Assembly (NCBI GenBank): GCA_013180625.2
Contig: SNVD02013588.1
Span: 1 to 64,000, forward strand
Direction: 5' to 3'
Length of the DNA stretch: 64,000 nt
Source of the DNA: Boswellia sacra
Lineage: Eukaryota; Streptophyta; Magnoliopsida; Sapindales; Burseraceae
The stretch's first letter is position 1. Every line of letters starts with the position of its first letter. Under the pieces are notes generated by a model. It did not search any database and was not told the origin of the DNA. It worked only from the letters and a program-made list of their open reading frames with translations. The position numbers and the translations under genes were made by a program. Of the stretch, positions 15,810 through 54,373 are shown in pieces.

Positions 15810-17321
15810 TCAGACAGAATTATCAAAAACAAGATCAGTTCGAAAATAAAACAAAACAGAAAGTTCAGAAGCTCCTTCTCCAAAAACTCCTTCTCTTTCT
15901 CTCCCCCTTGACTCATCTCTCAGTTCTGGAGCTGTTGAGTCAATTTTCTTCTTTCTCTTGTCAGATGGTTTCTTCACCAATTTGATCTTCTTCTTTGCTT
16001 TCAATCCCTTTGTAATTGTCTTGAATTTCTTTTTCTTTTGCTTCTTCTCTGCTTTTATGTCTATCTTAACAGCAGTTTGTTCAGTTGGATATTCTGTAGG
16101 TAGTGGCTTAGCTTCTTCAGGCGGTGGGGCATCAGGTCCTGGTACGTGCTCTGCAGACTTCTGAGGAACCGCATTGTTAGTTTCCATGGGCTGTGGTTCT
16201 TTTGCAGTACCAAATTATCCTGCAAGTTTGGCCTCCAAAACAGATTGTTTAGCCTTGATATCTTTAAGATCCTGCATAATATCTTTCAAGACAAAATTTA
16301 TCTCAGCAAGTTGTTCTTCTACATTGCCCATAGGATGTTTCCTGACTCTCCTGGGTTTTGGTTATGGTGCAGGGAGATCAGTTTTATCATGCAATATATG
16401 TAGAAAACCTTTAGTGATTGACCTGGTTAGAGTTTCAGTATGTTCTTTGAGACTTATAGGGACACCATTCTGTGCTAAAATCCCTTGAATTAAGCATGAA
16501 AAAACAAGTAAATGATAGTCAAATTTGTATGGAGCAATCTGAACAATCATTCTATAAGCCAATAAACCAAAATTAATTGGTCGATTGGTACCCGAATAGA
16601 ACAAAAACTTCACTCTGTCTTCCTTGACTTGGTTTTGGTATGATGAGGAAAGCCAATTAAATCGTGCAATCTTATGCATCACCCTATGCTTTTTTTTGAG
16701 ATATTGCTGGTCAATTCCATCCATCGATTTTCATTCTATATCCTCTCTACCAGTCAGTTATTTAATCACTACAGCCATATCAAAATTCTCAACCAAAGAA
16801 TGCAAACTTCCTATTTGTATATCAAAGAATGTGTTTATGACATTCGATGAGAATTTCACAAACTTTTGTTTACAATATGCACTATGATAATGAAAGCTTT
16901 TCGGATCATCAATTGAAGTAGAGATATTGGCATAGAATTCTTGAATTAATGACTTCATAGGAGGTAGGAAATTGTTTGTTGTATGAGTCCAGTATATGGA
17001 CTCAAGAAGCTCACTCAATCCATAGTTGTTGAAGTCTGTTAGCTTCGTTGGCCTTTCCATCTGCAATTTCCTTTTTGAGGTGTACTTCAAGAATTTTTGC
17101 TTGACGACTATTGTGAGGAACTTGTTATACTTTGGCTTCACTTTGTCTTTCATCTTCTTCACTAGAATCAATTCATCTTCACTCATTACAGGATCAATCG
17201 AGATCTCTGCTTGAGGCTATTGTGAATGAGACAACCGTGCACTATTGCTACTATTGTAACCAGAGTCGTTCTGTGAAGATTAGGAACTATGTGTTTTTGA
17301 AGATTCTGAGGTGGTCGCCAT
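15810..17321 (-). pseudogene. Env-like / putative plant transposon protein of copia element 1
   Basis: This ORF follows pol in SIRE-like elements. The start is ATG at 17321 (MATTSESSKTHSS), with a stop soon after. The body (17186-16758) reads KVKPKYNKFL, ERPTKLTDFNNYGLSELLES and LIQEFYANIS, a pattern of the 'putative plant transposon protein' family. The next block (16724-16362) has FGLLAYRMIVQIAPY and LIQGILAQNGVP, and the C-terminal block (16187-15810) is proline- and lysine-rich. At least three interruptions break it. Whether the intact protein acts as an envelope is unproven; I see no clear transmembrane span in these fragments. It aligns with 51621-55280. Confidence 0.7.
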
Positions 17322-21540: not shown

Positions 21541-21545
21541 TGTCG
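21541..21545. repeat. Target site duplication of Athila-type element (TGTCG)
   Basis: TGTCG lies immediately left of the TGATGCG end. The same five bases follow the ATCA end at 30575-30579. This fixes both ends of a complete insertion. Confidence 0.9.
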
Positions 21546-22950
21546 TGATGCGTTCGAAACTAGCAAGTATACTAGTCGCACAAGTAATAAAGTGATAAGT
21601 AAGATATCGTTCCCACGAGGATTGATTCTAATTGAATTTGTTATTTCCAGCAACAATTAACTAAATGGGGGGGTTTTGTTGAATGATTAACTAAGTGAAA
21701 TAAGAATGCAAATTAAGAATAACAAAACAGAAGTTAATTTGAATAAAAGATCAATGAGGAAAATCTGGTTAAGGGATCCTTCTCTACCACAAGATATGGA
21801 TTTGCGAATTAATTGTAGAATTGTCATCAATTACACCATTGAAATTACCAACCGTAGATAACAACAAGCTCTGTTATCCCAATCTTTCCTTACTTTGTTG
21901 TTAAACAAAACAGGCTCTTTATTTAATCTCTATCCATTAAACAACCTAGAACACGCTCTCTAAATTTAATTCCATGGATGCATTACGATAAGAAAGATAG
22001 GTTGATCTAAGCAATAAACACACAAGCTCGGATTATTTAACTTAGGTTGTATTCTCCAATTGCAATCTCTGATCACAATTTTGCTACTAAGGATTAGAAA
22101 TTAAAGACAATTACGGATCAAGATTTCTAGTCTAGTAATAGACAACAACCAGATTATATTCAGTTGGCCATTCGAAATACAATCCAGCAAGCAATCATAA
22201 GCATTAGATATAGAAAAATACAAGCAACTTCAATTAGAGAATTGGATAACAATTTCTTATACAATCAACTTACAAAAATCATATCAGGGCTTTGAAATCA
22301 CCCTCAACCAATTCAGATTCAGTTACACATGTTTAAGAACGTGGTAAATACAATACAACAAGTAGACATTCCAGAAAATGAAAGGGAAGGGAAAAACTTA
22401 GCAAATTTGATGTAATTCTCTTTGGATTGTAGTTCTTCCTCTTTCCAAGCTTCCTTTCTCCTTCAAGAACTCCAAGATATGAAAGAATTCCAGAGCTGCA
22501 GCCTCTATCACGTTCTCCCCTCTTCAAGTTATGAAATAAAACCCTAAAATGTGTTTAAATACTCTGCTACAGTAATGTGCTACAGTGTCCGTATTATACA
22601 TGCTACAGTGATGTGGAATTACATTTCTACACTTCTCACACTGTTTTGATTACAACTTTCGGTACACTGAATGGATTCATAAACCGTAAATTTCTCCAAA
22701 AAGTAGACTTCGAGAGCTTTTCAACGGTATATGATATGTCATCGGGTTCATTGTATATCAATACAATTAAATCCGAGAAGATGGTTGATTAGCAGAAGTA
22801 AAAATGAAGGGTTTTACTATATTTTTGTGCAAGTTGCTCCAAAACTCATACAAACATCAAAACCACACAAAAATATAAAAATACCAAGGGATATAGCAAA
22901 GAAACATGGACGAATTGATATGAAAGTAATACATAAATAGACACCTATCA
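21546..22950 (-). repeat. 3' LTR (left) of Athila-type element
   Basis: Runs TGATGCGTTCG to GACACCTATCA, 1405 bp. It is nearly identical to 29167-30574. Short ORFs inside it (for example 22333-22527) occur in both LTRs and are not genes. Confidence 0.9.
22548..22612 (-). promoter_or_regulatory. LTR U3 repeats and TATA-like box
   Basis: On the minus strand three ACTGTAGC motifs (plus strand GCTACAGT at about 22565, 22579 and 22601) precede a TATTTAAAC TATA-like sequence (about 22549-22560). The same arrangement is in the right LTR at about 30172-30236. Spaced short repeats just upstream of a TATA-like box suggest the core promoter and enhancer of the element. Confidence 0.4.
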
Positions 22951-22963
22951 AATTCCCCCACAC
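22951..22963 (-). other. Polypurine tract of Athila-type element
   Basis: The minus strand reads GTGTGGGGGAATT directly before the left LTR. This is the classical Athila/Tat 3' tract and confirms minus orientation. Confidence 0.85.
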
Positions 22964-24945
22964 TTAGACTTTGCTAGTCCTCGAGCAAATAAAATGATAA
23001 GAAACAAAACTAAACCGAAACAAAATCAAAGAAAACTTAAAACACACAAATGCTTCAACTTGCAAATAGGCCTCAAAGATTGTACTTAATTATAACCCAA
23101 GGAAAACTTCAAAATAATGCACTTGATCAAGAAATTCATCTCAAATATTAGTTTCGCTTCACTTCAATTCCTCAAGTGTGTGTGTGTAGAGCCATTCTCA
23201 CCTAATCACTTGTAACCCGGATGAGTTTATGCTTAAAAATGAATCATATTTAATAGTGAATATGTGTGTATAAATGAACTCCATAGGCCTGCTTTTCAAG
23301 TCACTCTCCACTAATGTAGACATGCACAACACCAAGGATCAAGTAGGACTTTATTAAGCTTGTAACGTTTGGCTTGGGTGAAGGTATGATAAAGGATAAT
23401 AATTAGGCTCAAATCACCCACAAACATATAAATCATTCAAGGCAAAGTAGAACTCAACCCTATAACACAACTTTATTTCAATTAACCAGGTTACTCCCCC
23501 AAACTTATTTAGAATACTCAATCTTCCTTTTTTTTGTAGAAAACAAAAGAAACTACACCCCCACACTTTGTTGTTTCATTCTTTTTAAGAACAATTAAGG
23601 GTATAGATCTCTTATTCTTCTTCTTTTGTTCTCTTTTTTTTTCTTTTTTTTCTTTTTTTTTTATTTTTTTACTACACTTCCCCTCCCCCACACTTAAACA
23701 ACACATTGTCCTCAATGTGTAAGTAGGTGGACGATAAGTACAGATTGGTTTTTTTTCTGTTTTTCTTTTTTTTTTAAACACAATAGAACTCACTTGTATT
23801 GCTCATGACACATCCCAACCTCCTCTAACTTCCCAAAACCAGAACATAGCTCAAAATTTAATTATGAACGATCTACATGCTCATAGGTAAGGGATAAACT
23901 GTTTGGAATAAATTCATTTGAGGTTAGGAAATCTTTTAGTGAGTTAACAAAGAAAAAGGCTTACAAAGGCTCAAAGGGTAACTAGGGATCAATTTCAGTC
24001 AAGGTTGGCTATTAAGGCTCAAACGGTCCAAAGATGGCCTAAATCATTTCCCCAATGTTGCACAGTCTAGGATTTCGCCTCGAGTGACCATCAAACAAGT
24101 TTAGAATTCATTGAAATCTGAAGAAACATTTAAATTACATAAACTTTCTCTAAGTGAACAAATAACTCAGTGATAATAGCTCAGTGCTCAATGTTGCGCA
24201 AGGAATAAAAATCAAAGCGAAAACCAATAAACATTTCAAGCACACAGATCCATGCATCATTTATCATTTTCCAAGAGTTATTCTTAATTCAATCATTATC
24301 TTATCATCGACCTACCAAATGCAAGAAAAGAGGTACGTGGCATTGTTACACCTGAGTCAAGATTGTATATTTCAACAATCCTTAGGACCAGTAGCCCGCA
24401 GACGTAAGGTTTTCAGCCTATATACCTTTATTATGAAAGAACAACACAAGAAACAAGACACTTCAAACAACGTGAAATAAACAAACTACAAAGTTATTAA
24501 GGAAGAATGCGTTTCAAGGGTTAAGGAAACCCCATATTCTGCCATTCTCAGGTTTTTCCACACTGTTTTTTTTTTCTGAATGGAAACTGATATAGACAAA
24601 AACACACAACAACTCTAAATTACACAAAACTAAACTTACTCATAAAATAACAAAGTCCAACAAGCGAGCAAACAAAAACAAGTCAATTAGAATGGTCTAA
24701 AAAGTTTAGAAGTTAGCCTCCTTATTCAGCCATTATAGATTGAAGAGATCCAGAATGCGTTTCAAGAGAACTTGAACTTTTTAAGCCACCACTCTAAAAA
24801 CCGAGATTAGAAAATATTACCTGGGACGAAAGAAATAACCTGAAAAAGCTCAAAAGAAACGACATAAAAAATCTCAAATAAACACACTAAAAAGAAAGCA
24901 AACAAAAACGAAGCAAACCAGCAAATAGGGATTACAGATGGAGGG
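22964..24945 (-). other. 3' non-coding region of Athila-type element
   Basis: Between the LOG homologue and the 3' LTR lie about 2 kb without a sense gene. It holds pyrimidine-rich runs (23625-23670 and 23750-23776) and the block CCCCCACACTTAAACAACAC followed by ATTGTCCTCAATGTG (23692-23720), a hallmark of this retrotransposon group that recurs at 43290-43310. An antisense 98-codon ORF (24184-24480) is described separately. The same region is shared with 47000-47790. Confidence 0.7.
24184..24480 (+). other. Antisense 98-codon ORF, conserved in the third copy
   Basis: This ORF runs opposite to the retrotransposon in its 3' region. A related 98-codon ORF with the same start and stop positions is present in the diverged copy at 47440-47736; both begin MLNVxQGIKxKAKTNKHFKHTD. 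It shows no domain, signal peptide or known motif. It could simply be chance persistence of an open frame in related DNA, and I do not call it a gene. Confidence 0.25.
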
Positions 24946-25580
24946 TTAAATCCAGTTGACGCCTTTTGTTGCCTTCTCCAAACCAATTATCCGAGCCATT
25001 GTTGGATCAGGTGAATAGACGAATTCTTGTAGTTTGTCAATTAACTCTCCTGCAGTTGAAGCTGTAACCAGCATTTCCCTTGCTGACGGTGAGATGAAAT
25101 TTTTTTCTACAGCTTGATCAAGAAAGGACAACAAACCATCAAAAAAATTATTAACATTTAACCAACCAATGGGTTTCCGATGGATGTTTAGCTGTGCCCA
25201 AGAGGTGATTTGAAATATCTCCTCTAATGTACCATAACCACCCGGCAAAGCTATAAATGCATCGGACTTAACAACCATATGTTCAATACGCTCATGCATG
25301 CTAGAGACTTGTAACTCTTCCCCGATTGTGTTGCCTACGATATCTCGCACAGCTAATGGTTTAGGATAATGCCGAGAACTTTACTTCCTCCCAAGGATGC
25401 AGCTGTCGACACACACCCCATTAACCCAAGACTACCCCCTCCATAAATCAAATGAATACCCCTCGCAGCTAATGTCCTACCAAGATCAAGAGCTGCTGTT
25501 GTAAACTCTCCATCTTTACCAAATTGCGATCCGCAAAATAAGCATATATTGCGGAATCGCCGAATTGGTGTTTTCTCCAT
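24946..25580 (-). pseudogene. LOG-like: LOG-type cytokinin riboside 5'-monophosphate phosphoribohydrolase, one frameshift
   Basis: The LOG enzyme removes ribose 5-phosphate from cytokinin nucleotides to release active cytokinin in the cytosol. Two minus-strand frames, 25580-25353 (75 codons) and 25350-24946 (134 codons), together cover the whole family length of about 210 residues. Key motifs are FCGSQFG near the N-terminus, the nucleotide-binding YGGGSLGLMG, SMHERI, and the catalytic PGGYGTLEE. All are intact. The frames are separated by what looks like a one-base loss near 25366, just after VLGII, so this copy is probably inactive unless the loss is a sequence error. Plant LOG genes normally have several introns; this copy has none, so it derives from an RNA intermediate. 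It lies in sense orientation between ORF-X and the 3' LTR of the retrotransposon. Related copies are at 43452-44077 and 46358-46989. Confidence 0.85.
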
Positions 25581-25776
25581 TTCTACAAGTGCTCTAATCT
25601 TGTGTAAGACACGTTAGATATTATGCTTTTCATTGCAAGACAGGTTATGGAATGACATATGAAAATATGCAGAATGTATATATACACCCATAAAAATCTC
25701 AAATTTTTACACATGGGGACATACTTTCGGTGGGGGTTGCTCGATGCAGATTTATCGCCCCAAGATTTGAAAAAAT

Positions 25777-25895
25777 GAGATATGCTTCGGCGAGGTTTGA
25801 CAAAACCTACACACTTGTCTCCCACGTGAAGCATGGAAAATGGAGATACACTTTCGGCGGGGGTTGACAAAACCTCCACACTTGTCTCCCACGTG
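25777..25895 (-). promoter_or_regulatory. Tandem repeat with two G-boxes upstream of LOG
   Basis: Two units (25777-25828 and 25843-25895) share TTCGGCG(A/G)GG, GACAAAACCT and ACACTTGTCTCCCACGTG. Each carries the palindromic G-box CACGTG (25823-25828, 25890-25895). They lie about 200-315 bp upstream of the LOG start on the minus strand. The related plus-strand copy has one such unit (near 46100-46130) with CACACGTGGG. A promoter role is inferred from the position and motif. Confidence 0.45.
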
Positions 25896-26120
25896 TACTT
25901 ATGCCATAGGGTAGTCATATGGTTTGTCAAAAAGAAAAACTTGAAATTAAAACAAACAAAATCAACAAACAACAACAACACAAAAACAATATTGATAATC
26001 AGATCAAACGAAACAAGAAAAAAAATTCTACAACAACAACACACATTCAAATATACAAGTAGTTGTGATTGTGGCTCAATCTTCCTCTGGTTTTACGTCC
26101 AGTAACGGCTGAAACGCCTT

Positions 26121-26675
26121 CTATGAGTCGGGGATTTGCTTCCCATCCAGTTTTCTTATAAACTGGCAAACAGGGTCGTTTTTAGTCAGATTCCATAGAC
26201 TATAACACTGCAATTCATCACGAAATTGTGTCCATAGATTAAGCAATTCACGCTGAACAAGTCCACAAGAATGTGACTCGAGAGTTAACAAAACATTATC
26301 CAGCGACTCATTACTCAAACCATTCTTAATAAATGAAAGTTTATCTTCTCTATTCCTGGACGCAAAACCTAATGAACGACAAGTCTGGTTACAATTCCAT
26401 CTAGCACATTTATAACATACTTGTAACCTTTTCGCTCTTCGCCTCTTGGCGTAGTAGCTCTTTCCTAGACCAGGCATGTATTTTGCGAGATTAATGTCCG
26501 GCTCACCGGACAATCTCACCTTGGCTTCGATAAGCCATCGGATATCCGCAGGCAGATTTAAGAGCATCAATACCCAAAGTCTAGTCATCCGTACTTTATA
26601 AATTTTAAACACAGCATTTTGAGGAAGTGAAGGAAAATATTTACGAAGATTCGACAGAAAGATATCGGCATCCAT
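26121..26675 (-). CDS. ORF-X: basic zinc-finger protein resembling plant-virus nucleic-acid-binding proteins (184 aa)
   Basis: This intact minus-strand ORF has no match to normal retrotransposon proteins. Residues 1-70 are mostly helical and hydrophobic (IYKVRMTRLWVLMLLNLP, IRWLIEAKVRL). Next comes a basic stretch (YYAKRRRAKRL, about residues 76-86) directly followed by a compact finger CYKC-x4-C-x3-C (about residues 88-99), then a charged tail with FIKNG. A short helical N-half, an arginine-rich patch, then a small four-cysteine finger is the layout of the Cys-rich nucleic-acid-binding proteins of carla-like viruses (Pfam Viral_NABP), several of which are nuclear and suppress RNA silencing. 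Homology is my inference by eye; this protein is longer than the viral ones. It precedes the LOG homologue by about 540 bp. The finger is preserved in all three copies in this window. The ATG at 26675 is supported by the conserved upstream sequence in the copy at 45323. Confidence 0.6.
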   Translation of the reverse strand: MDADIFLSNLRKYFPSLPQNAVFKIYKVRMTRLWVLMLLNLPADIRWLIEAKVRLSGEPDINLAKYMPGLGKSYYAKRRRAKRLQVCYKCARWNCNQTCRSLGFASRNREDKLSFIKNGLSNESLDNVLLTLESHSCGLVQRELLNLWTQFRDELQCYSLWNLTKNDPVCQFIRKLDGKQIPDS

Positions 26676-26710
26676 TGAAGAAGAGAAAAGGAGAGATATT
26701 ACCGATGATG

Positions 26711-26797
26711 TTATTGAGTTTGTTCTTCTCCTAGATATGCACGTTTCAAACCTTCGGGCAATGGTTTCAGCTCCCCTTTGGATGTTTCCTCAAGCTG
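26711..26797 (-). pseudogene. Short pre-RT pol fragment upstream of ORF-X
   Basis: The minus strand reads a 28-codon stretch containing GELKPLPEGLKRAYLGEE then a stop. This is the conserved linker just before RT in Athila/Tat pol. A related linker belongs to the remnant at 27111-27608, so this fragment is out of order and marks a rearrangement. Confidence 0.5.
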
Positions 26798-27110
26798 TTA
26801 CACAAATGGATTCGAAGTACGAAATAATCAAATTAAACAAAAGGAAGGAAAAGAAAAGAGCAGAAACGAAACTAAAGACACATAAAAGAGATAACAACAC
26901 AATAACAAACAAAAGTCAAAAACAAGTAAAAACAAATAAGACAGCTGTCAAAGAGAGATAAAACCTGATCAATTTGATGGCCTACAAAAGAAATTTCCTC
27001 GAGACACAAAAATCGATCATTATTACCTTATTTTATTTTTCTTTTCTTTTCTTTTATTTATTTTTCAAAAAAATTGGGTTGCCTCCCAATAAGTGCTTGG
27101 TTTAACGTCC
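26798..27110 (-). other. Pol-end region of Athila-type element
   Basis: The minus-strand motif GACGTTAAACCAAG followed by TTGGGAGGCAACCCAA (27070-27113) is a hallmark of the end of pol in this retrotransposon group. Here it lies only a few bases after the RT start (QRRLDPAMME), which shows that RT, RNase H and integrase are deleted. The rest is A-rich without genes. Confidence 0.6.
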
Positions 27111-27608
27111 TCAGCCCGACGTTGGTTCCATCATGGCAGGGTCCAATCTCCGCTGTGCTTCTCTAGTGGGCTTGGATCCTTTTTCCAACAAGAATTGGTG
27201 CATGCATATGGCTGGGCCCTGTCTCTTATACACATCTAGATGTGTATAAGAGACAGGTACTCGGACGCGTTTCTCTTCTTGTAGTGGTGCAAGGCCCATT
27301 TCTATTGTAACTAGTAAAGGATCTTTGTCACCCAAAAACGCATGCCTCAAATAATCTGGAAGTAGCTTAAACTCCAAGGTATTGGCTTTCATCACAGAAG
27401 GAAGAAGTTTCTCTTTAGATAAAGGCAATTCAATGCACGAAACATCATACCTGTTTGTGATTATAGCTATAGTCTCATCTAAGGATGCCATAGCTTCCTC
27501 CATTTCTTTGGACACGTGTATCAACCTTCTTGGTTCTTTGGAATTTTCCGTCCCTATGTGCTCACTCATTGCCTCGAAAATATGCAAACGGATCACTTTT
27601 GCCATCAA
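27111..27608 (-). pseudogene. Protease-RT linker and RT start of Athila-type pol, containing adaptor
   Basis: The minus-strand reading holds the usual linker (NTLEFKLLPDYLRHAFLGD) and the start of RT (SKPTREAQRRLDPAMME). Between them is an artificial peptide (SYTHLDVYKRQ) encoded by a sequencing adaptor at 27219-27256. About 25 residues expected between the linker and the RT start are absent, replaced by the adaptor. After the RT start the frame stops and passes straight to the pol-end motif. Confidence 0.75.
27219..27256. other. Nextera mate-pair junction adaptor (assembly contamination)
   Basis: CTGTCTCTTATACACATCT followed directly by AGATGTGTATAAGAGACAG is the 19-bp Tn5 mosaic end and its exact reverse complement. 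Head to head they form the junction adaptor of Nextera mate-pair libraries. It is a library artefact, not plant DNA. The sequence joined at this point may be misassembled or lack bases. Confidence 0.97.
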
Positions 27609-27633
27609 ACTCCATGGTGAAAGTATATGAACA

Positions 27634-29068
27634 TCAATATTGATTCATAGCAGTTTCGAGAATGGCCTCCCTAAAAGAATCGGTGTTGGGATTAGGAGAT
27701 GTCTCATCCTCCATTTCAAGAACATAGAAGGCTGTTGGGAAAACCAATTGATTCACCTGCACAAGCACATCTTCCACAACTCCCTTGGGATATGCATTAG
27801 AACGATCAGCAAGTTGAATGATAATACCAGTTTCCGCAAGGGGTACAAGATTCAAGGAAGCATAAATAGAATATGGCATGACATTAATAGATGCTCTAAA
27901 ATCTAACATAGCTCTTTCAAACTTGGTATTACCAATGGTGCATGGAATGGTGAACGTACCTGGATCTTTGCATTTCGGAGGAATTTTTCTTTGCAATACA
28001 GCTGAAACATTTTCCCCCACACTTACATTCTCATTTCCCTTCAACTTTCTCTTGTTGGTGCATAACTCCTTGAGAAATTTTGTACAACGAGGTACTTGCT
28101 CGATAGCATCCAGAAGTGATATATTTACCTCGATTTTGTGTGAAGTTTCCAGGATTTCTTGTTCTTGTTCCTCCTTCTTTGATTTTGCAAATCTGCTAGG
28201 AAATGGTGGAGGAGTAACATAAGAAGGAATTTGAGTTTTGAGATCTACCTTAGAAGATGATGTGTTGTTCATGGTGGAAGTGGTGTCATCTCCTTCATCA
28301 GTTTGTGATTTCTTTGTCAGGTTTTGGATACTTGCCCCAGTTTCCATTTGCTCTCCATTTCGAATTTGCTCTCCACTTCGCAAAGTTATCGCACAAGCAT
28401 TTTCTCTTGGATTGATCACTGCTTGAGAAGATAATTTTTCTGAGTCTTGGCCCTCGAATTTGCTCATGCTAGTAGCCAATTGTCCCATTTGATTTGCCAG
28501 GATTTTGGATACTTGCCCCAGTTTCCTGCTGGAATTGCATTGTGTTAGTGGCAAGTGCATTAACAATGATCTCGAGAGACATACCTGAGTTTTGTGAAGC
28601 TGGTTGCGGTGCTGGATGTGGCATTGGTGGTGGTTGCATTTGAAAAGGTTGCTGCACTCTAGGTTGATTGAAACCTTGTGGCCGATTTGGTATCACATTT
28701 GGAGTGATTGGTTGATGATTCCAGTAACTGAAATTATGTTGATCTTCCCATCCAGCATTGTAAGTGCTAGAGAAAGGATCATACCATTGCCTCGTTTGTC
28801 CTGGAAATCCACCCATGGCATTGGCTTGTTCCATATATTCTTCTTGTAAAGTTGGATACATGTCGATTGGATGCTCCATCGTAGAATATATCCCACATTC
28901 ATAAGATTTTTGCATATCTCCTACAGCCATGTTTTCCACAAGAGAGGTTAGCTCAGAAAGTTGTTGTTCAATGTTCGGAGTGCTTACCTCATTTACTCTC
29001 CATGGTACTTGTGGCTCAAATCCGCTACTGAATTGATGGAAGTTTACTGCCATGTTGGCTAAACACAA
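27634..29068 (-). pseudogene. gag-pro: Athila-type gag-protease remnant
   Basis: Two frames, 29068-28469 and 28566-27634, are joined by a frameshift near 28500. The first lacks the N-terminal capsid part of gag and starts close to the primer site. Its zinc knuckle is damaged (CGIYSTMEHPIDMYPTLQ keeps the histidine but has lost cysteines). The second frame has the group signatures CAITLRSG, FLKELCTNKRKL, IPPKCKDPGTFTIPCTIGN and the protease region FERAMLDFRASINVMPYSIY. The active-site glycine after the aspartate is replaced (DFR in place of the expected D-x-G), so the protease should be dead. The element is therefore non-autonomous at every step. Confidence 0.8.
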
Positions 29069-29143
29069 ACAATCAAAAAGAAAAACAAACCAAAATATGA
29101 ATCAACAATGAAAACAAAATAACAAATCGATTAGAAAATCAAT

Positions 29144-29160
29144 CCCCGGCAACGGCGCCA
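29144..29160 (-). other. Primer binding site
   Basis: The minus strand reads TGGCGCCGTTGCCGGGG six bases inside the right LTR. This is the Athila-type primer site, usually assigned to tRNA-Asp. It confirms that the right LTR is the 5' LTR. Confidence 0.85.
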
Positions 29161-29166
29161 AAAACT

Positions 29167-30574
29167 TGATGCGTTCGAAACTAGCAAGTATACTAGTCGC
29201 ACAAGTAATAAAGTGATAAGTAAGATATCGTTCCCACGAGGATTGATTCTAATTGAATTTGTTATTTCCAGCAACAATTAACTAAATGGGGGGGTTTTGT
29301 TGAATGATTAACTAAGTGAAATAAGAATGCAAATTAAGAATAACAAAACAGAGTTAATTTGAATAAAAGATCAATGAGGAAATCTGGTTAAGGGATCCTT
29401 CTCTAGCACAAGATATGGATTTGAGAATTAATCGTAGAATTGTCATCCAATTACACCATTGAAATCATCAACCGTAGATAACAACAAGCTCTGTTATCCC
29501 AATCTTTCCTTACTTTGTTGTTAAATAAAACAGGCTCTTTATTTAATCTCTATCCATTAAACAACCTAGAACAAGCTCTCTAAATTTAATTCAATGGATG
29601 CATTATGATAAGAAAGATAGGTTGATCTAAGCAATAAACACACAAGCTCGGATTATTTAACTTAGGTTATATTCTCCAATTGCAATCTCTGATCACAATT
29701 TTGCTACTAAGGATTAGAAATTCAAGACAATTACGGATCAAGATTTCTAGTCTAGCAATAGACAACAACCAGATTATATTCAGTTGGCCATTCGAAATAC
29801 AATCCAGCAAGCAATCATAAGCATTAGATATAGGAAAATACAAGCAACTTCAATTAGAGAATTGGATAACAACTTCTTGCACAATCAACTTACAAAAACC
29901 ATATCAGGGGCTTTGAAATCACCCTCAACCAATTCAGATTCAGTTACACATGTTTAAGAACGTGGTAAATACAATACAACATGGAGACATTCCAGAAAAT
30001 GAAAGGGAAGGGAAAAACTTAGCAAATTTGATGTAATTCTCTTTGGATTGTAGTTCTTCCTCTTTCCAAGCTTCCTTTCTCCTTCAAGAACTCCAAGAGA
30101 TGAAAGAATTCCAGAGCTGCAGCCTCTACCACGTTCTCCCCTCTTCAAGTTATGAAATAAAACCCTAAAATGTGTTTAAATACTCTGCTACAGTAACGTG
30201 CTACAGTGTCCCGTATTATACATGCTACAGTGATGTGTGGAATTACATTTCTACACTTCTCACACTGTTTTGATTACAACTTTCGGTACACTGAATGGAT
30301 TCATAAACCGTAAATTTCTCCAAAAAGTAGACTTCGAGAGCTTTTCAACGGTATATGATACGTCATCGGGTTCATTGTATGTCAATACAATTAAATCCGA
30401 GAAGATGGTTGATTAGCAGAAGTAAAAATGAAGGGTTTTACTCCATTTTTGTGCAAGTTGCTCCAAAACTCCTACAAACATCAAAACCACACAAAAACAT
30501 AAAAATACCAAGGGATATAGCAAAGAAACATGGACGAATTGATATGAAAGTAATACATAAATAGACACCTATCA
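29167..30574 (-). repeat. 5' LTR (right) of Athila-type element
   Basis: 1408 bp, TGATGCGTTCG to GACACCTATCA on the plus strand, followed by the TGTCG duplication (30575-30579). Confidence 0.9.
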
Positions 30575-30626
30575 TGTCGTGTTCGTATCGTGTGTTAGAA
30601 TGTCATGTCAAAAATTGACACCCCTA

Positions 30627-40584: not shown

Positions 40585-42115
40585 TGACACATCCAAACAT
40601 AGGATTATCTCCCAAGTATAGGAGTGTCGAAGTAATAAACCCGGTAAGATCGGGTTTGATCCACGAGAAAGGGGATTTAGTGGTACAAACTAAAAGGTGA
40701 GCAAATATAATAACAAGATAATATTAACAAATAAAAGTCAAGATGGTAGGAGGCACTACTAACCATTCAAATATAAAACAAAAATAAAAGGTGGTAAAAC
40801 CATCCCTGAAAATAGGAGGTAAAACCTACCATTGCAAATAAAACAACAAGTTCATAGACAATAAACAAGAATAATTAAATTACACAAGTAAGAGGAATTA
40901 ACACAATAATAATGAAAGATAAGGTTGGAGGATCCGCCCTTGATATATCAAATAAAGATAATTAACCCAATTATAACTCAATTGGAATCCACACATCGAG
41001 GAGGTTCCAATTGGAAGGTATGTCATTTAAGCCCATTTAATTATATGAATTATATTTGTTTCATTACCAATATTTATACCACTTCTTGTAAATGGGTTTA
41101 AGTATCCAATGTACCAATCACCATATATCTACAACAAATCAAGGTTTCCAACTAGACTTGTGTCGGTAAGGAAGAACCATACGACATTTAGAAAGGATCT
41201 AAGCATTTGATGTGCCAAGGATTGTCTACAATGGATCAAGACCTCCACTTTACGAGTAGTGTCAAGATTGATTAGAGAAATAAATATAAATCATATAAAA
41301 TAAATAACAAAAGATTATGATTCTTAAGCACATATTAAAGGTTTAGAGGACTCTTATTCTCATATAAAGGGTTTCACCTTTTCACCTTAGCAAGAGAAAA
41401 TTTAGCAAGATATTATGAAAGAAAGAAAACAAATTGAAAAAAAAAAAGAAGATTTATTAATAACATTCAGAAAACAAAACACAAGAGAGAAAAACAGAAT
41501 AATAAGAGATCCCAGCCAAGGCCAAGATGCCCTAATGGCTCACAATGCACCTCTATTTATAGATATATTTAGGGGCAAACTTGTCAAATTACAAAGGGAC
41601 AATTATAAAATATCTTATTGACAATTTAGATTATCATATGCACTGACTTTGACCAGCAATTTCGATACCAAATTATTTAGAATTTTTGTTACATGTCTTC
41701 ATGAAAATTGTAGATATTTCTCTCAGATTTCTAGAACATCATGATTCATACGATTTGCATACGTATATCAAGAGATATGGTTAAAATACGGAGGCATGGT
41801 TAGTATGGGCCAAAACTGCAGATGGGTTCAATTCAAGCCCATTTTTGGTCTATTAAGAGCCCGAATTTGATGATCTTTGCGAAATATGATCTTGTGAATA
41901 ATTTAATCAGCTTTGCAACAAATTAAGATTTGTACCATTCTGATCTATAAATAGAAAGTTATGCCTATTTTACCGAACCTACAATAAAAACTGAAATTAA
42001 GATAAAACTAATTCAAAAGATGCAAAGATTACAAATATGCTTAAATTTAGTGACACTATTAATGTAATATGATGAATTAAGCTCTTATTAAGTATACATA
42101 TTTAAGTGTTCATCA
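40585..42115 (-). repeat. 3' LTR of Athila-type fragment 2 (about 1.53 kb)
   Basis: The right end ...GTTCATCA at 42115 is followed by CACCCCCCAACTAGC, the reverse of a polypurine tract (GTTGGGGGGTG). The left end is inferred as TGACACATCC at 40585, just before the LTR-start-like text GTGTCGAAGTAATAAACC...GATCCACGAG. An internal short ORF (41415-41621) is not a gene. Confidence 0.6.
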
Positions 42116-43451
42116 CACCCCCCAACTAGCTTATTGCTAGTCCCTAGCAATTAAAGCGTTATTATTTAGAAGTGATTTATAGAATTTTACATATAAGGTG
42201 GTCATTATTGCACTCTCCTTGATTTTATCCAAATAAACAAACTCTCAAAAGATTATTTTTCTCTTTTTTTTTAAAAGACTCGTGTACCTTTCAGTCAAGA
42301 TATTAACAAACCTTCTTTTTGTGCTCAGTCGAAACATGACTATGGGGCTTTTTAGAAAGAAGGCATATAAGTCCTCATATTTGTTAAAGCTAACATCCTT
42401 AGGCAGGGGGCATTCATTCATCATTATTTTTATTTTTTTTGAAACAATACATCTTTAACCTATGTAGCGAGCCTTAGGCTAATGACTCCCACACTAGTTG
42501 GCCTAGGTCATTAGGTGTTAAGACACTCCTACGAGCTTAACGACTTGGGCTGCCGATACTTTATTTTTGTTTAGAAACTTGTGGATAGTGCAATGATTCA
42601 ATCCCCTTAAGCTTTCTCCTTAATCTATATAACGAGCTTTGGGCCAATAGCTCCTAAACCAGTTGGTCTTAGGGTATTAGGTGTTGAGGCACCCCTGGGA
42701 TTTAATTGCTCGAATTAAGAAGGCTGCGAGACCAAACTTATCCATAATTATTTTTTTTCACTTTTTTCCTCTCTTTTTTTTATTTACTTTTCTTTCCTTT
42801 TGTTGTTATCCTAAACAAAACAAAAGAACTCAAATATTGCAACCCACAATCATGCATCAAAGTATGTGTGTGTGTAAAGAAAGAATTCATGAATACTTAC
42901 TTAATGAGTACATAAGCAAACAGTTTATTAAATGATAAGGTCGTGAGAGTTCATAGATTTAAATAATTCAAAGTGAAGTGAATAAAACATTCTTCTTATA
43001 AAATTCAAAAATCAAAACTAAATAATATAAAGTTAGCTAAAATGAGTTTTCAAAAGTGCAAAATCAAAATAAAATGACAAATTGATTAGAATGGGTTTTA
43101 CGAGTTTAAAATGACCCTCTTTACTCTGTCATTCCTAGCCCAGAATGCGTCTCAAGAGGATTTGAACTCCTTACACAACACTTTGAATCTAATTACTAAC
43201 TCCTTTTTTTTCTTTTTTGCAAAAAGAAAATTTAAGAGACACTTATGTCTACTATCCTTTACACACCCTTCCCCCCCCCCCAAACCAAACGAAACATTGT
43301 CCTCAATGTTTAAATGTAGAGAGATAAAGTATAGGAGACATTACCTGGAGCTTCAGTTATTCAAAAGAGACAACCTAAAAGACACATAAAATAAAATGCT
43401 ACAAATAAAATAACAGACAAGAGAAATTATAAATGGAGATTCATATCCAAT
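42116..43451 (-). other. 3' non-coding region of Athila-type fragment 2
   Basis: Holds the polypurine tract (42116-42126), repeated segments around GAGCC/TTTGGGC...TAGTTGGCCTAGG (42470-42690), and the ATTGTCCTCAATG hallmark near 43298-43311 next to a C10 run. No sense gene is seen. Confidence 0.6.
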
Positions 43452-44077
43452 TTACACTTTCTGTTTTGTCCTCCCCGACCAATTAAATTGAGTTATTGTT
43501 GGGTTAGGTTCAAACTCGACTGTTTGTAATTTGTCAAGCAATTCACTAGCAGTAGTTGTAGAAACAAGGATCTGTCGAACCGAATGAGGGATAAAATTCT
43601 GTTCTATAATTGTATTAACAAAACGTATCAAAGGATCTAAGAATTTTTTAACATTCAACAAACCTATGGGTTTTTTATGGAGATTCAGTTGGACCAAGAG
43701 GCAATTTGAAAAATTTTTTCAAGAGTATCAAAGCCACCAGGTAATGCAATAAAGGCATCCGAATTGATAAAAGTATATGCCATGCGTTCATGCATATAGG
43801 AGACCTGTAACTCCTTCCCAACTATTTTTTCAATGATGCTTTCTACAACCAAAGATTTAGGAATAACACCTAAAACTTGACTGTCTCCTACGAGTGCAGC
43901 TGTTGACACACAACCTATTAACCTGAGGCTACCTTCCCTATAAACCACATGAATCTTTCTTTCAGCTAATAGCCTGCCAAGATAGTTTGCTACTGCTACA
44001 AACTCTTCACTTTTTTCAGGTCGAGATCCACAGAATGCACATATCTTTTGGATTCGACGTTTTGAGATTTCCTCCAT
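43452..44077 (-). pseudogene. LOG-like: LOG-like copy 2, degenerate
   Basis: Two frames (44077-43685 and 43697-43452) cover a full-length LOG homologue, with a frameshift near 43690. It keeps FCGSRPEKSEEF, SYMHERM and HKKPIGLLNV. The binding and catalytic motifs are altered: the GGGS motif reads REGSLRLIG, and the PGGxGTxxE motif reads PGGFDTLEK. The enzyme should be inactive. It has no introns. The protein is clearly diverged from the copy at 24946-25580. Confidence 0.8.
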
Positions 44078-44414
44078 GTCTATGCAACTCTCTAACTATA
44101 TGTGTGAAGAGGAGAATAAGAGATGTCATATTTATAGAGTGCAAAAAGGCATTCTAATGATGACATCTCTATAGGTAGCTTGACTGTTTGTTGAAAAAGT
44201 TTGATAATAAAGCATAGAAATTCAAAAAAAATGACAAAAACAAGACACCATAAATGCATAAGTCAATCAAAAGATAGAGATATAAAGTTAAAAATGACAG
44301 TTGTAAGACATAAAAATTCAAAAATGATAGCATGCATGTATATGTACAGGTAGTTGTGACTGTGGCTCACATCTTCCTCTGGTTTTACATCCAGAAACGG
44401 CTTAAACACCTTGT

Positions 44415-44944
44415 ATGAGTTGGGGATATGCTTCCCATCTAGCTTTCTTATATTTTTAAGTCAAATTCCTGAGATTATAACGTTCCTGCTCTTTTCAAAA
44501 TTGTGTCCATAATTTCAAAATTTAATGCTGCATAATTCCACAAGAACGCCTCTCCAGAGTCAATTGGATATTATCCAAAGACTCCCTACTCAGTCCATTC
44601 TTTATGAATTGTAGCTTATCCTCTCGATTGTTAGACAAATATCCAAAGGAGCGGCATTGCTGGTTACAAGTCCATCTTACACATTTATGACAACCTTGTA
44701 ACCTTTTTGCTTTTCGCTTTTTGGCGTGAGAGCTTTTTTCCAAACTTGGCATGTGAGAAACTAGATTATCTAAAAATTCACAAGAAAATCGAACCATGGC
44801 TTCAATTAACCACCTTAAATAAGCAGGAATATCCTTGCACATCAACATCCTTAGTCTTTCTGTGCGAGTTTTGTAAATTTTAAGCAAATCATTTTGAGGA
44901 TAAAAGGGAAAACATGTGTACAGATTCGAGAGAATGGTATCCAT
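44415..44944 (-). pseudogene. ORF-X copy 2
   Basis: Homologous to 26121-26675 from MDTILSNLYTCF (ATG at 44944) to the conserved end (LDGKHIPNS). The basic patch (HAKKRKAKRL) and finger CHKC-x4-C-x3-C are intact even though much of the rest differs. A premature stop at about 44519-44521 cuts the C-terminal part. An upstream in-frame ATG at 44986 is not supported by the other copies. Confidence 0.7.
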
Positions 44945-45129
44945 GTGAAGAAAATGAGAGAGAGAAAAAAAAGAACATGAATGCAAGGTGAGTAACAGTT
45001 TTTAGGGAACTGAAAAACCAACTTTAAAAGTCACGGAGTAATGTATCCGTCTCTTGATCGGAAAAAATCAATCCTTAAAAAGGATTGATTAAAGCAAATG
45101 GACTCTTCATTTTAATCAAAATTTTTAAA

Positions 45130-45207
45130 TAATGGTTTTAACCTTTGTCCATTAACTTTAAAAACATTACCATTCTTTGGGTTCTCAATTTCAACAGCTC
45201 CATGAAA
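45130..45207 (-). pseudogene. Integrase C-terminal tail of Athila-type pol
   Basis: The minus strand reads HGAVEI then ENPKNGNVFKVNGQRLKP, a conserved tail of Athila/Tat integrase. It lies just upstream of ORF-X copy 2 and shows that ORF-X and LOG follow the end of pol. Confidence 0.7.
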
Positions 45208-45322
45208 TTTCAACAGCTCAATTTCAATTTCAACATTACCCTAATGACCCAAACACATTTGAAATTTTCAAAGAACAAACTCAAAAGCATTATCAATAAT
45301 ATCTTTCATTTTCTCCTCTTCA

Positions 45323-45876
45323 ATGGATATCAATATCTTTCTATCCAACCTTCGTAAACATTTCCCTTCACTTCCTTAAAATACTGTGTTCAAAATTTAT
45401 AAGGTACGGATGACTAGACTTTGGATGTTGATGCTCTAAAAAATGCTTGCGGATATCTGGTGGCTTCTCTAAGCTAAGGTAAGATTGTCCGGTGAACCTG
45501 ATATTAATCTCACAATATACATGCCTGGTCTAAGGAAGAGCTATTACGCCAAAAGGCAAAGAGCAAAGAGAATACAAGTCTGTTATAAATGTGCCCAATG
45601 GAATTGTAACCAGAGTTGTCGATCATTAGGTTTTGTGTTCAGGAATAGAGAAGATAAACTTTCGTTCATTAAAATGGTTTGAGTAATGAGTCTCTGGATA
45701 ATATTTTACTAAATATTGAGTCACATTCTTGTGAACTTGTTCACTGTGAATTGCTTAATCTATGGACATAATTTTGTGGTGAATTACAACATTATACTCT
45801 AGGGAATCTGACTAAAAAAGATCATGCTTGCCAGTTTATAAGAAAACTGGATGGGAAGCATATCCCTGACTCATAG
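45323..45876 (+). pseudogene. ORF-X copy 3
   Basis: Homologous to 26675-26121 with several stops (after FPSLP, in the MLML region and after FIKMV). The basic patch (YYAKRQRAKRI) and the finger CYKC-x4-C-x3-C survive. The start ATG aligns with that of the intact copy. Confidence 0.75.
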
Positions 45877-46357
45877 AAGGCGTTTCAGCCGTTACTGGAC
45901 GTAAAACTAGAGGGAGATGTGAGCCACAATCACAACTACTTGTATATTTGAACATGTGTTATTATTGTAAAAATTTATTTTTCTTCATTTATTTGATTTG
46001 ATTATTATTGTTGTCTTTGTGTTGTTGTTGTTTGTTGATTTTTGTTTGTTAATTTCAAGTTTTCTTTTTGATAAACAACATGATTACCGATAACATAAGC
46101 ACACGTGGGAGCAAGTGTAAGGGTTTTGTCATCCCCCGCCGAAAGCATATCTCAATTTTTCAAATCTTGGGCCGGTACATATGCATCGAGCAACCTCACT
46201 GAAATTATATCCTCATGCGTCAAATCTAAGAGCATTGCGTGTGTATCTATCCATTCTCCATATTTTCAAATGTCATTACTATAACATTTTTTGACCTTGA
46301 AAATCATAACATCTAACGTGCATCATTATCTTACACATGGTTAGGGCACATGTAGAA

Positions 46358-46989
46358 TTGAAGAAAACACCAATTTGGTGATTTTGAAATATATGCATAT
46401 TTTGTGGATCTCAATTTGGTAAATATGGAGAGTTTGTAGCAGCAGCTATTGATCTTGGTAAGGTATTAGCTCAGAGGCATATTTATTTGGTTTATGGAGG
46501 AGATAGCCTTGGGTTAATAGTGTGTATGTCAACAGCTACAACCTTAGAAGGGAGCCAAGTTCTCAGCATTATCTCTAAACCATTAGCTGTACGACATATC
46601 ATAGGCAACACAATGAGGGAAGAGTTACAGGTCTCAAGCATGCATAAGCGTATTGCACATTTGCTTTTTAACTTTGATGAATTTATAGCTTAACCGGGTG
46701 GTTATGGTGCATTATAGGAAATATTTCTAATCACCTCTTAGGCATAGCTAAACATCCACCAAAAACCCATTGGTTTGTTAAATGTTACTAATTTTTTTGA
46801 TGGTTTGTTTTCTTTTCTTGATCAAGTTGTAGAACAAAACTTCATCTCACAGTTGGCGAGGCAAATCTTGGTAATAGCTTCAACTGCAGAGGAGTCGATT
46901 GACAAACTACAAGAATTCATTCATTCACTTGATTTAGCAACAGCTCGAATTGGATTGGTTTGCAGAAGGTACTAAAAGGCGTAAACTAG
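46358..46989 (+). pseudogene. LOG-like: LOG-like copy 3, degenerate
   Basis: Full-length homologue with stops after the start and in the catalytic part (A-stop-PGGYGAL-stop-E). It keeps FCGSQFGKYGEF, the PLAVR region without the frameshift seen at 25366, and HQKPIGLLNV. The ATG is changed to TTG (46358). Intronless. This copy shows that the frame broken in the complete element was once open. Confidence 0.8.
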
Positions 46990-47736: not shown

Positions 47737-47789
47737 TTGACCATTATCACTGAACTATTTGTTTAGTTAGAGAAGGTTTATGCAATTTA

Positions 47790-50782
47790 AGTGTTTCTTA
47801 AGTAAGATTATTGGTAAAGGCACTTTGAATGTCAAAGGCCTACCCAATTTTAGAAATGTTCTTTTAGTGGAAGACTTAAAGGCTAATCTTATTAGTATAA
47901 GTCAAATTTGTGATGAAAAGTATACTGTTAACTTCACACAAAACAAATGCATGGTCTTAGATAATTTTAGTGAATGCATTCTACAAAGTAATAGATCTTT
48001 AGATAATTGTTATCTAGTAGAAATTGCATTTCATGCTAGGATTTTGGATTTAGAATTGTGGCATCAAAAATTAGGACACTTGAATTACAAAGACTTGGTT
48101 AAATTAACTAAGTTAGGTGCTGTAAGAGGAGTTCCTAAACTTGATGATAAAATTGATAAAATTTGTGGACCATGTCAAATGGGAAAACAAATTAGAAGTT
48201 CACACAAATCAAATCCACATCTTAGTACTTCTAAGATACTTGATTTGCTTCACATGGATCTTATGGGTCCCATGCAAATTGAAAGCATTATAGGTAAGAG
48301 ATATATATTTGTTTGTGTGGATGATTTTTCTAGATATACTTGGATTGACTTTATTAAAGAAAAATCTGACACTTTGGTTGCTTTCAGGAACCTTTGTGTC
48401 AAGCTTGAAAATGAGCAAAATAGGAACATTTGAAGGATTATAAGAATAAGAAGTGATCATGGAAAGGAGTTTGAAAACGTTAGCTATGATGATTTTTGCA
48501 AATATCATAGAATTGATCATCAATTTTCAGCTCCTAAAACCCCTGAATAGAATGGCATTGTAGAGAGGAAGAATAGAACCCTTTAAGAGATGGCAAGAGT
48601 AATGCTTAATAGCAAGAAGTTAACCAAGAGGCTATGGGCTGAAGCTATAAGCACTGCTTGCTATATTTCAAAAAGAGTTTTTCTTAGACCTAGTACTAAC
48701 TAGACACCTTATGAAATCTTGAAAGGAAAAAAACCTAATTTGAAATATTTTCATGTTTTTGATTGCATGTGTTACATCTTAAACGATAGAGAACTGTTAT
48801 GAAAATTAGATCCAAGGAGTGATGAAGGAGTCTTTGTGGGATATGCACAAAATAGCAAGGCTTTTCGAGTTTACAATCTGAGAACTGAGGCAGTCATGGA
48901 ATCTGCAAATGTAGTATTTGATAATCATGATGATTATGCAGAATACTCACAAAAAGAAAACATAATCAGCTTCACAGAAGATGTAGAAAAATCTGATCCA
49001 AACAGAAATAAATAGAAAGATGCTATTATGAAAGAAGAAACAGTGGCTGTTACACTCAATGTAACAGTAGCATCTGACAACTCAGATTTAAACCAAAATT
49101 CGATTCAGAATGGTGATGATCAAAAAGATCCACCCATATGGATTCAGAAGGCATATCCAACAAGTTCTGTCATTGGACCACCAGATGACATGAGGAAGAC
49201 TCGGAGCAAGGTAAGAAACCATGTAAGGTTTGCATGTTATGTTTCTTTAGTTGAGTCGAAGAATGTGAAAGAAGCCTTAAAAGAAGAAGTATGGATTCAA
49301 GCTATGCAAGACGAACTTAATCAGTTTAAGAGAAATGAAGTGTGGGAATTAATTCCTAGGCCAAGAAATACAAATGTCATTTGAACTAAATGGATTTTCA
49401 AAAATAAAACTGATGAAAGTGGACAAGTAGTTAGAAATAAAGCTAGGCTAGTTGCACAAGGTTACACTCAAGTTGAAGGCATAGACTTTGATGAAACCTT
49501 TGCACCAGTAGCTAGACTTGAATCAATCATATTATTTCTTGCAATTGCTTGTTTAATTGAGTTTAAGTTGTACTAAATGAATGTTAAAAATGCATTTTTA
49601 AATGGCTATCTCAATGAAGAAGTTTTTGTTGAACAACCTAAACGATTTGAAGATCCTAAACATCCAGATTTTGTGTACAAATTGCACAAAGCTTTGTATG
49701 GTTTGAAACAAGCTCCTAGAGCTTGGTATGAAAGGTTGACTAATTTTTTAATCAACAAAGGTTATAAAAGAGGTAGAAATGATAAAACTTTGTTTATCAA
49801 ACATGCATCAAACTATTTTATTGTTGCTCAAATATATGTTGATGACATTGTTTTCAGATCAACTAACAAAAGCAAAATTAATGAGTTTGTTAAGTTGATG
49901 TAGGAAGAATTTGAGATGAGCATGGTAGGAGAACTAAATTTCTTTCTTGGATTACAGGTTAAGCAAATAAATGATGGGATATTTATATCTCAATCAAAAT
50001 ATGCTAAAAATCTAGTAAAGAAATTTGGGCTTGAAAATGCAAAACCAATGAAAACTCTTATTAGTACTAATCTAAAACTTTCCAAAGACAATGCAGGAAA
50101 AAAAGTTGATGCAAGCTTATACAGAAGCATTATTGGTAGTCTACTTTACCTCATAGCAAGCAGACCAGATTTGAGCTTTAGTGTAGGACTTTGTGCAAGA
50201 TTTCAAGCAAATCCCAAAGAATCTCATCTTGCAGCAGCAAAGAGAATCATCAGGTATGTTCATAGAATATATGATTATAGAATTTGGTTTTCTAAAGAAA
50301 CAAATGATTGTCTTGCAGGGTTCAATGATGCAGATTGGGCAGGGAATGCTGATGACAGAAAAAGCACTTCAGGAGGTTGTTTTTATCTTGGTACTAACTT
50401 GGTTTCATGGCACAGTAAGAAGCAGAATTCAATTTCTTTATCTACAACTGAAGCCGAATACATAGCAGTTGGGAGTTGTTGTACACAACTGTTGTGGATG
50501 AAGCAAATGTTGAGAGATTATGGTATTGAACAGAAGCCCATTACTGTGTTTTGTGATAATACTAGTGCTATAAATATTTTCAAAAATCTAGTTCAACATT
50601 CTAGGACAAAACACATTGATATTAGATATCACTTTATAAGGGAACTAGTGGAATCTAAAGTGATACACATTGAGCACATCTCCATAGATAAATAATTGGC
50701 TGACTTGTTCACTAAGGCATTGGACACAACAAGATTTGAAAATCTAAGAAAAGCCTTAGGTATTTGTCAATTATATGATTGA
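47790..50782 (+). pseudogene. pol: Copia pol (integrase-RT-RNase H), degenerate
   Basis: The domains are in order. Pre-integrase: LWHQKLGHLNYKDLVKL and CGPCQMGKQIRSSH. Integrase: DLLHMDLMGPMQIES, FVCVDDFSRYTWIDF, then RSDHGKEFEN and IVERKNRTL with a stop before [91 protein letters not shown], and the catalytic [12 protein letters not shown]. RNase H: GFNDADWAGNADDRKSTSGG, LSTTEAEYIA, FCDNTSAI. It ends LADLFTKALDTTRFENLRKALGICQLYD. About ten stops interrupt it, at 48432, 48548, 48584, 48702, 49382, 49574 and others. The motif set fits the SIRE/Maximus lineage. This enzyme set copies and integrates the element; this copy is dead. Confidence 0.9.
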
Positions 50783-54320: not shown

Positions 54321-54373
54321 TGGGCAGAAAATTTGGAGTTGGTGTCTTCACTTGATTAAGTTCATCTCATTTG

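Follow-up and report, generated by a model that had tools for sequence, protein, structure and literature searches.

A YgdH/LOG domain has been recorded in consensus sequences of long terminal repeat (LTR) retrotransposons of Citrus sinensis, C. clementina and, with the filter off, Populus trichocarpa (PMC9289625); the accessible text of that report cites Steinbauerova et al. (2011, Genetica) and also describes orchid Gypsy elements that carry a functional AlkB m6A demethylase, the activity of which was assayed in vitro. Here we describe a Ty3/gypsy-type retrotransposon, element 1, in a stretch of 64,000 nucleotides from Boswellia sacra (contig SNVD02013588.1, positions 1 to 64,000; the whole stretch is called the window below), which carries the open reading frame (ORF) of a four-cysteine finger protein of viral type, called CRP here, followed by a LOG homologue. 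Like the Citrus and Populus elements, the window has a LOG-family domain inside plant Gypsy-type elements, but the accessible part of that report (PMC9289625) mentions neither a viral-type finger ORF nor a CRP–LOG pair, and neither a changed pocket nor selection acting on LOG. The orchid elements resemble the window lineage in that a captured enzyme domain is fixed in a Gypsy lineage; they differ in the enzyme, which in the accessible text is found only in Phalaenopsis and was assayed in vitro.

Athila-type elements have an env-like ORF. According to the accessible part of PMC6317226, extra ORFs between pol and the 3' LTR are common in the OTA superclade, and a primer-binding site (PBS) of the tRNA-Asp type is listed for non-chromoviruses. 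The window element resembles the Athila type in both respects, but its extra ORFs are CRP and LOG and not an env-like or ATHILA ORF-1 protein. Carlavirus and mandarivirus cysteine-rich proteins such as CVB p12 belong to the same nucleic-acid-binding family as CRP (PF01623/PF05515); in the accessible text of PMC12172455 such viral proteins suppress silencing, and CVB p12 is a transcription factor that induces hyperplasia. CRP differs from them in that it is most often 182 amino acids long, lies in a retroelement and has a predicted suppressor role. With the plant LOG proteins AtLOG3 (2a33) and AtLOG8 (1ydh) the element LOG shares the family, the PGGxGTxxE motif and the catalytic Arg and Glu, but Lys100 and Glu125 are replaced, the window stretch has no introns, and the protein is encoded in elements.

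No report of a CRP–LOG pair was found among the listed papers on LOG/lysine decarboxylase in LTR elements, on the Pfam names or on viral binding proteins in retrotransposons, a literature of which most subscription papers lay outside the coverage, and a term search found neither 'lysine decarboxylase' nor 'cytokinin' in the accessible text of PMC7264820, PMC11963269, PMC6317226 and PMC11728184. The first-pass annotation of the window, made from its letters, had stated that it knew of no described LTR element with this pair; within this coverage that holds for the pair, while LOG alone is known from the Citrus and Populus elements. LOG in a retrotransposon is therefore not new; within the same coverage, novelty seems to lie in the CRP–LOG module downstream of the integrase, in its constraint and in the paired pocket change.

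Our preferred reading, which we hold to be rather probable, is that the window contains degraded members of a eudicot retrotransposon lineage with a constrained CRP–LOG module that helps the element. We are highly confident of the anatomy and the conservation of the module; the benefit that it would bring to the element is proposed tentatively and leans towards the doubtful. The module recurs in divergent copies in the order CRP then LOG, is present in gene models of other species and is constrained in the older comparisons.

The two LTRs of element 1 differ by 28 mismatches in 1403 aligned bases (Kimura two-parameter distance 0.020), start with TGATG and end with TATCA, and the target-site duplication TGTCG is found on both flanks (21541-21545 and 30575-30579). 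Together with the PBS, the paired LTRs and the duplication identify element 1 as an LTR retrotransposon. Behind the PBS follow a gag remnant, a gag/protease ORF, CRP, the LOG stretch and about 2 kb without ORFs of at least 80 amino acids, up to the 3' LTR; CRP and LOG are both in sense to the gag-protease ORFs (Table 1). The lineage is of the Ty3/gypsy type and probably belongs to the Athila clade, a name that integrase features and the type of the PBS support indirectly.

The finger of CRP copy 1 has the form CX2CX4CX3C, and the protein exceeds the Pfam gathering cut-off in both viral nucleic-acid-binding families, Viral_NABP (PF05515; E 9.9e-11, 42.5 bits with a cut-off of 23) and Carla_C4 (PF01623; E 3.5e-5, 24.1 bits with a cut-off of 20.9). 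The LTR pair with its duplication, the intact basic four-cysteine ORF in sense and its viral type had all been claimed in the first-pass annotation and were confirmed, the viral type also weakly by the names of the fold matches given below. A search with CRP as query gave 134 proteins at E of at most 0.01 out of 165 candidates, and a CRP profile search gave 873 proteins from 2369 candidates; for the CRP query, the CRP profile and the LOG searches 120 matches each were listed. Among the listed CRP matches 102 of 120 have a CX2CX4CX3-4C finger, 62 of 120 resemble one another at both ends, and 44 of 120 have a length of exactly 182 amino acids. Scanning viral_contigs with CRP, the CRP alignment and one LOG yielded no relative.

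By tblastn of the element 1 proteins against the window two more CRP–LOG pairs were identified at 43450-46951, and all three pairs have the same order. Copy 2 is 82-86% identical to element 1 in its DNA over the module and the downstream flank, ending at 47802. The probable LTR of copy 3 has no partner in the LTR-pair listing of the window. Copies 2 and 3 lie head to head and form a 140-nt inverted repeat (44313-44452 and 45837-45976, 81% complementary). Copia-type pol fragments at 47771-50695 (gag_pre-integrase, a weak integrase and RVT_2) adjoin copy 2 directly where it stops, at about 47802.

Table 1. Coordinates of element 1, of the two further copies of the module and of their parts in the 64-kb window
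Feature	Position	Strand	Remarks
Element 1	21546-30574	(-)	Ty3/gypsy-type; coding sense is the minus strand
3' LTR of element 1	21546-22950	(-)	1405 bp; 97.5% identity to the 5' LTR
LOG homologue (copy 1)	24946-25580	(-)	two pieces, 25369-25580 and 24946-25371, split by a frame change
CRP (copy 1)	26121-26675	(-)	intact basic four-cysteine ORF of 184 amino acids
Adapter-like palindrome	27219-27256	none	38 bp, perfect; 19-bp halves CTGTCTCTTATACACATCT at 27219 and AGATGTGTATAAGAGACAG at 27238
gag/protease ORF	27634-28560	(-)	weak Asp_protease_2 match (E 0.02, under the Pfam cut-off); gag part by eye
gag remnant	28469-29053	(-)	gag assigned by eye
PBS	29142-29160	(-)	TGGCGCCGTTGCCGGGGAT; 19 bases adjoining the 5' LTR; one match, 0 mismatches, 0 expected by chance; taken to be of the tRNA-Asp type
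5' LTR of element 1	29167-30574	(-)	1408 bp
Probable 3' LTR of copy 3	40629-42113	(-)	boundaries by eye; purine-rich tract (coding strand) at the inner end
Copy 3 LOG	43450-44077	(-)	decayed
Copy 3 CRP	44405-44943	(-)	decayed; 59% amino acid identity over 164 residues
Copy 3 integrase C-terminal tail	45070-45204	(-)	upstream of CRP; 64% identity over 45 residues to the L001 integrase, E 3.7e-12
Copy 2 CRP	45323-45873	(+)	decayed; 81% and 76% amino acid identity in two frames
Copy 2 LOG	46362-46951	(+)	decayed; 68% identity to the LOG 3' piece

Outside the window, one locus, L001 (DAIEQH010000041.1, 3330 bp), was confirmed among the 165 pattern matches that the CRP alignment gave in genome_contigs. 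It encodes a frame of 496 amino acids with an RNase H tail and an integrase (H2C2 E 1.4e-12, rve E 2.4e-16), and an intact CRP follows about 200 bp downstream. The record is labelled Candidatus Nomurabacteria yet carries a plant-type retroelement, which is probably a contamination of that bin.

Gene models of Rhamnella and Citrus also join the parts of the module. In the Rhamnella model P0066 the integrase C-terminus is fused to CRP, and the integrase is 70% identical over 111 amino acids to that of L001; P0130 from the same host combines integrase (76% of 41 amino acids), a piece of CRP (74% of 46 amino acids) and LOG (Pfam E 2.8e-34), and P0068, again from Rhamnella, contains CRP (59% identity over 97% of the query) and LOG. 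Two Citrus models agree with this: P0113 has CRP (Carla_C4 over the cut-off) and a LOG-like sequence (46% of 106 amino acids), and P0110 has a LOG-like part (LDcluster4 over the cut-off) and a CRP that is under the Pfam cut-off and 57% identical to 72% of the window CRP. These models come from other assemblies and are therefore independent of the window. A Gossypium model, P0101, was not counted, its tail being only weakly LOG-like (39% of 41 amino acids, E 6e-7). P0051 (CRP) and P0133 (LOG), both from records with a length of 905, were dismissed as one linked pair because such a record is too short for both. P0001 (CRP) and P0129 (LOG) both come from records with a length of 8723, which is compatible with one contig bearing both without proving that it is the same contig.

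Residues 1-70 of LOG copy 1 are in one frame and the remainder in another, and the listed ORF of 117 amino acids is the 3' part only; this ORF matches Lysine_decarbox (PF03641) with an E of 1.3e-30. The first-pass annotation had described an intronless, full-length LOG with the PGGYGTLEE motif. The homology, the motif and the lack of introns stand, but the frame is broken after 70 residues. The LOG 3' piece as query gave 2333 proteins at E of at most 1e-10 from 2384 candidates, and ordinary plant LOGs will be among them. Hosts named among the listed matches are Rhamnella, Xanthoceras, Gossypium, Citrus, Orobanche, Populus and Acer for CRP, and Rhamnella, Rehmannia, Melia, Diplodiscus, Primulina, Populus, Xanthoceras and Pterospermum for LOG; together these hosts span rosids and asterids. 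Certain LOG or CRP relatives stand for clusters with hundreds of members (P0175 205, P0244 566, P0257 315), which might fit high-copy or expressed elements.

In the accessible text of PMC4979012, Arg99 and Glu122 are the catalytic residues of LOG, and Met96, His97, Lys100, Glu125 and Trp129, identical in AtLOG3, OsLOG and CpLOG, are the likely site of the prenyl group, the Lys100/Glu125 pocket being located at the dimer interface. Both Lys100 and Glu125 are lacking in 115 of the 120 listed relatives, a list that favours proteins resembling the query; the remaining five keep both, and both are also present in three solved LOG-family proteins. Position 100 of the 115 pocket-changed proteins is Met (49), Leu (36) or Ile (30), and position 125 is His (69), Gln (42) or another residue (4) and in none of them Glu. 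Arg99 is retained in 109 of them, Glu122 in 113, Met96 in 112 and Trp129 in 114, but His97 only in 30. The piece of LOG copy 1 has Ile at position 100 and Gln at position 125; Met, His and Trp are kept, and the catalytic Arg and EE are present. The PGGxGTxxE motif with the catalytic Arg and Glu is thus found in the element LOG, and the conserved prenyl site is not. Because two pocket residues common to cytokinin-type LOGs are replaced, the name 'cytokinin-activating', as given in the first-pass annotation, is doubtful and unproven for the element LOG, even though the catalytic residues and the motif agree with it.

For a LOG tree of 95 rows 90 of the 120 listed matches were taken, namely those that have at least 180 amino acids or bear a host name, and the other 30 were omitted. 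In this tree a single clade of 87 rows (SH-aLRT 98) unites the 85 pocket-changed matches with copies 1 and 3 of the window. A slower tree of 40 rows, with 36 matches selected by the analyst, clusters 32 pocket-changed rows including window copy 1 with a support of 100/99. LOGs that keep Lys and Glu, e.g. Xanthoceras P0223, branch next outside the pocket-changed clade. The simplest reading of these trees would be a single capture of a plant LOG, followed by the paired pocket change.

Selection was assessed as dN/dS by a Nei–Gojobori count in which codons with gaps or stops were omitted, with Fisher tests on rounded counts. For CRP the ratio is 0.285 between copies 1 and 2 (p 1.8e-6; 1 codon skipped and 4 with stops), 0.254 between copies 1 and 3 (p 2.7e-11; 10 and 3) and 0.218 between copy 1 and L001 (p 7.9e-15; 3 and 0), in both of which CRP is intact; L001 gives 0.266 with copy 3 and 0.240 with copy 2. 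For LOG the ratio between copies 1 and 3 is 0.297 (p 1.5e-11; 5 codons skipped and 0 with stops; 0.525 and 0.204 for the two pieces). Purifying selection is visible in the older comparisons, in which dS is near 1 and dN/dS consequently approximate.

In the mechanism that we propose, the accessory module lies in sense between the integrase and the 3' LTR and would comprise first CRP and then an intronless LOG-family phosphoribohydrolase, both of which would be translated from the RNA of the element itself and be of use to it. By analogy with the related viral proteins, CRP may attach to RNA or DNA of the element and dampen silencing by the host, or may act on host transcription. By means of the usual catalytic Arg and Glu, LOG would free the base from a nucleoside 5'-monophosphate. 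With Lys100 and Glu125 gone from the pocket, its substrate range would presumably differ: cytokinin might still be released, to the advantage of dividing cells, or the enzyme might use another nucleotide. In its boldest form this would be a rosid and asterid lineage carrying, under purifying selection, a two-protein host-manipulation module: a homologue of silencing suppressors and a captured plant LOG, re-tuned by the concerted loss of Lys100 and Glu125 into a nucleotide-hydrolase effector with a new substrate, which would aid replication or escape from silencing. We regard this form as possible, though somewhat short of probable.

A number of observations correct the first-pass annotation or weigh against the preferred reading. 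Neither reverse transcriptase nor integrase was found in element 1 by Pfam, with six of the eight listed ORFs scanned and a decayed reverse transcriptase not searched separately, and the RNase H-tail/integrase protein of L001 had no significant match in element 1 (tblastn, best E 0.26). The claim of a complete element was not upheld by these results; the most that element 1 can be is a non-autonomous member with deletions. The adapter-like palindrome, presumably a Nextera mate-pair junction adapter, is situated inside the listed ORF 27111-27605 and supplies part of that spurious ORF, while its exact halves are found at no other site in the window. The assembly is therefore unsafe around the palindrome, i.e. 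in the pol region, and natural and artefactual loss of pol are indistinguishable. Furthermore, the reading frame of LOG copy 1 is broken, with intact relatives in the protein database, and both genes are decayed in copies 2 and 3. With two LOG queries no significant match was obtained in the 983 bp that remain after the L001 CRP (best E 0.032, 13 amino acids), and for this reason the pair may not be universal in the lineage. Other insertions with both ORFs had been set beforehand as a test of the cargo idea. Copies 2 and 3 and the gene models provide them, and in the part of L001 at hand CRP was seen without LOG, so that the cargo idea passes this test in part; intactness within the family is seen for the L001 CRP but not for window copies 2 and 3 or the LOG of copy 1. 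The predicted CRP models are poor (mean pLDDT 52.8 and 63.0), and none of 62 viral matches obtained in the fold search at E up to 10 is at or below 0.001. Nine of the ten best, all sub-threshold, are named silencing suppressors, nucleic-acid-binding or 15-kDa viral protein and one is unnamed, names that would back the viral-type finger weakly. Element context is seen for only some of the 115 pocket-changed LOG relatives. Finally, wheat LOGs with identical critical residues can differ in product, according to the accessible text of PMC11593424, and sequence may fail as a predictor of LOG activity.

Some of these points would fit an explanation in which the two genes are passive passengers: one RNA transduction would have picked up LOG (and CRP) accidentally, after which both were merely copied along and are now decaying without function. 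All three LOG copies of the window are broken, and between copies 1 and 2 the dN/dS of LOG, 0.656, is not significant (p 0.081; 0.878 and 0.559 for the two pieces; 7 codons skipped and 6 with stops). Coding and non-coding DNA of these two copies are conserved about equally, with identities of 86.8% for CRP, 84.6% for the LOG 3' piece and 85.5% for the non-coding flank (801 aligned bases). This recent LOG pair is indistinguishable from neutral evolution, which is what decay of copy 2 following its insertion would produce. The dN/dS below 1 that was looked for is present in CRP (0.22-0.29) and, over longer divergence, in LOG (0.30), but not significantly in the younger LOG comparison (0.66), and the former values speak against mere passengers. 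So do the common ends and lengths of the listed CRP matches and the catalytic residues mostly kept in LOG relatives 56-79% identical to the window piece, both arguments being weakened since ORF databases favour intact frames. Altogether we consider passive passengers unlikely. That CRP and LOG are neighbouring plant genes, brought into the element context by accident of insertion or assembly join, appears highly improbable to us, even though the adapter-like sequence shows faulty assembly about 540 bp from CRP: three divergent pairs are situated in one window, the integrase adjoins CRP in L001 and Rhamnella and its tail lies upstream of the copy 3 CRP, the model P0130 unites integrase, CRP and LOG, fused models exist in Citrus and Rhamnella, and the LOG stretch has no intron.

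We give equally little credence to the idea that the module is a piece of an endogenous RNA virus inserted in the element and not a gene set of the element. CRP does belong to a viral family, but no replicase- or coat-like ORF was recognized by eye among the listed ORFs (viral genes were not searched for by profile), in the LOG tree the element LOG stands beside plant LOGs, and CRP directly follows the integrase in L001. A further alternative, compatible with the preferred reading, concerns the enzyme: LOG may have been re-purposed, would no longer be a cytokinin enzyme and would act on another nucleoside monophosphate (e.g. adenosine monophosphate or another modified nucleotide), shifting nucleotide pools or host signalling. 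The loss of Lys100 (to Met, Ile or Leu) and Glu125 in nearly all listed matches would argue for it, as would their presence in the five others and the solved proteins and their naming for the adenine/prenyl site in the accessible text of PMC4979012. Met96 (112/115), Trp129 (114/115), Arg99 (109/115) and Glu122 (113/115) are kept, however, a more hydrophobic pocket could still accommodate an isopentenyl group, and residues alone failed to predict the product in wheat LOGs (PMC11593424, accessible text). We therefore see a real chance of re-purposing without holding it probable.

If the module works as proposed in the preferred reading, one family of silencing suppressors is common to transposable elements and RNA viruses, and an enzyme of a hormone pathway has been captured and re-tuned by a transposon. 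It would then be directly testable why plant Gypsy elements retain extra genes after the integrase and before the 3' LTR, and whether the hormone or nucleotide state of the host is manipulated by elements. Moreover, part of the plant genes annotated as 'LOG' may belong to elements and have a different substrate.

With respect to the remainder of the window, tRNA and Rfam scans gave no matches. Matches to Transposase_32 (PF20167) below the Pfam cut-off were seen in the ORFs 16758-17216 (-) and 52223-52702 (+); the ORF 51540-52019 resembles the former by eye and matched no family. Two tandem arrays are situated at 53572-54874, one of four copies about 182-192 bp apart and one of four copies 65 bp apart. 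At the left edge of the window, 437-1363 (+) encodes gag and aspartyl protease of a different retrotransposon.

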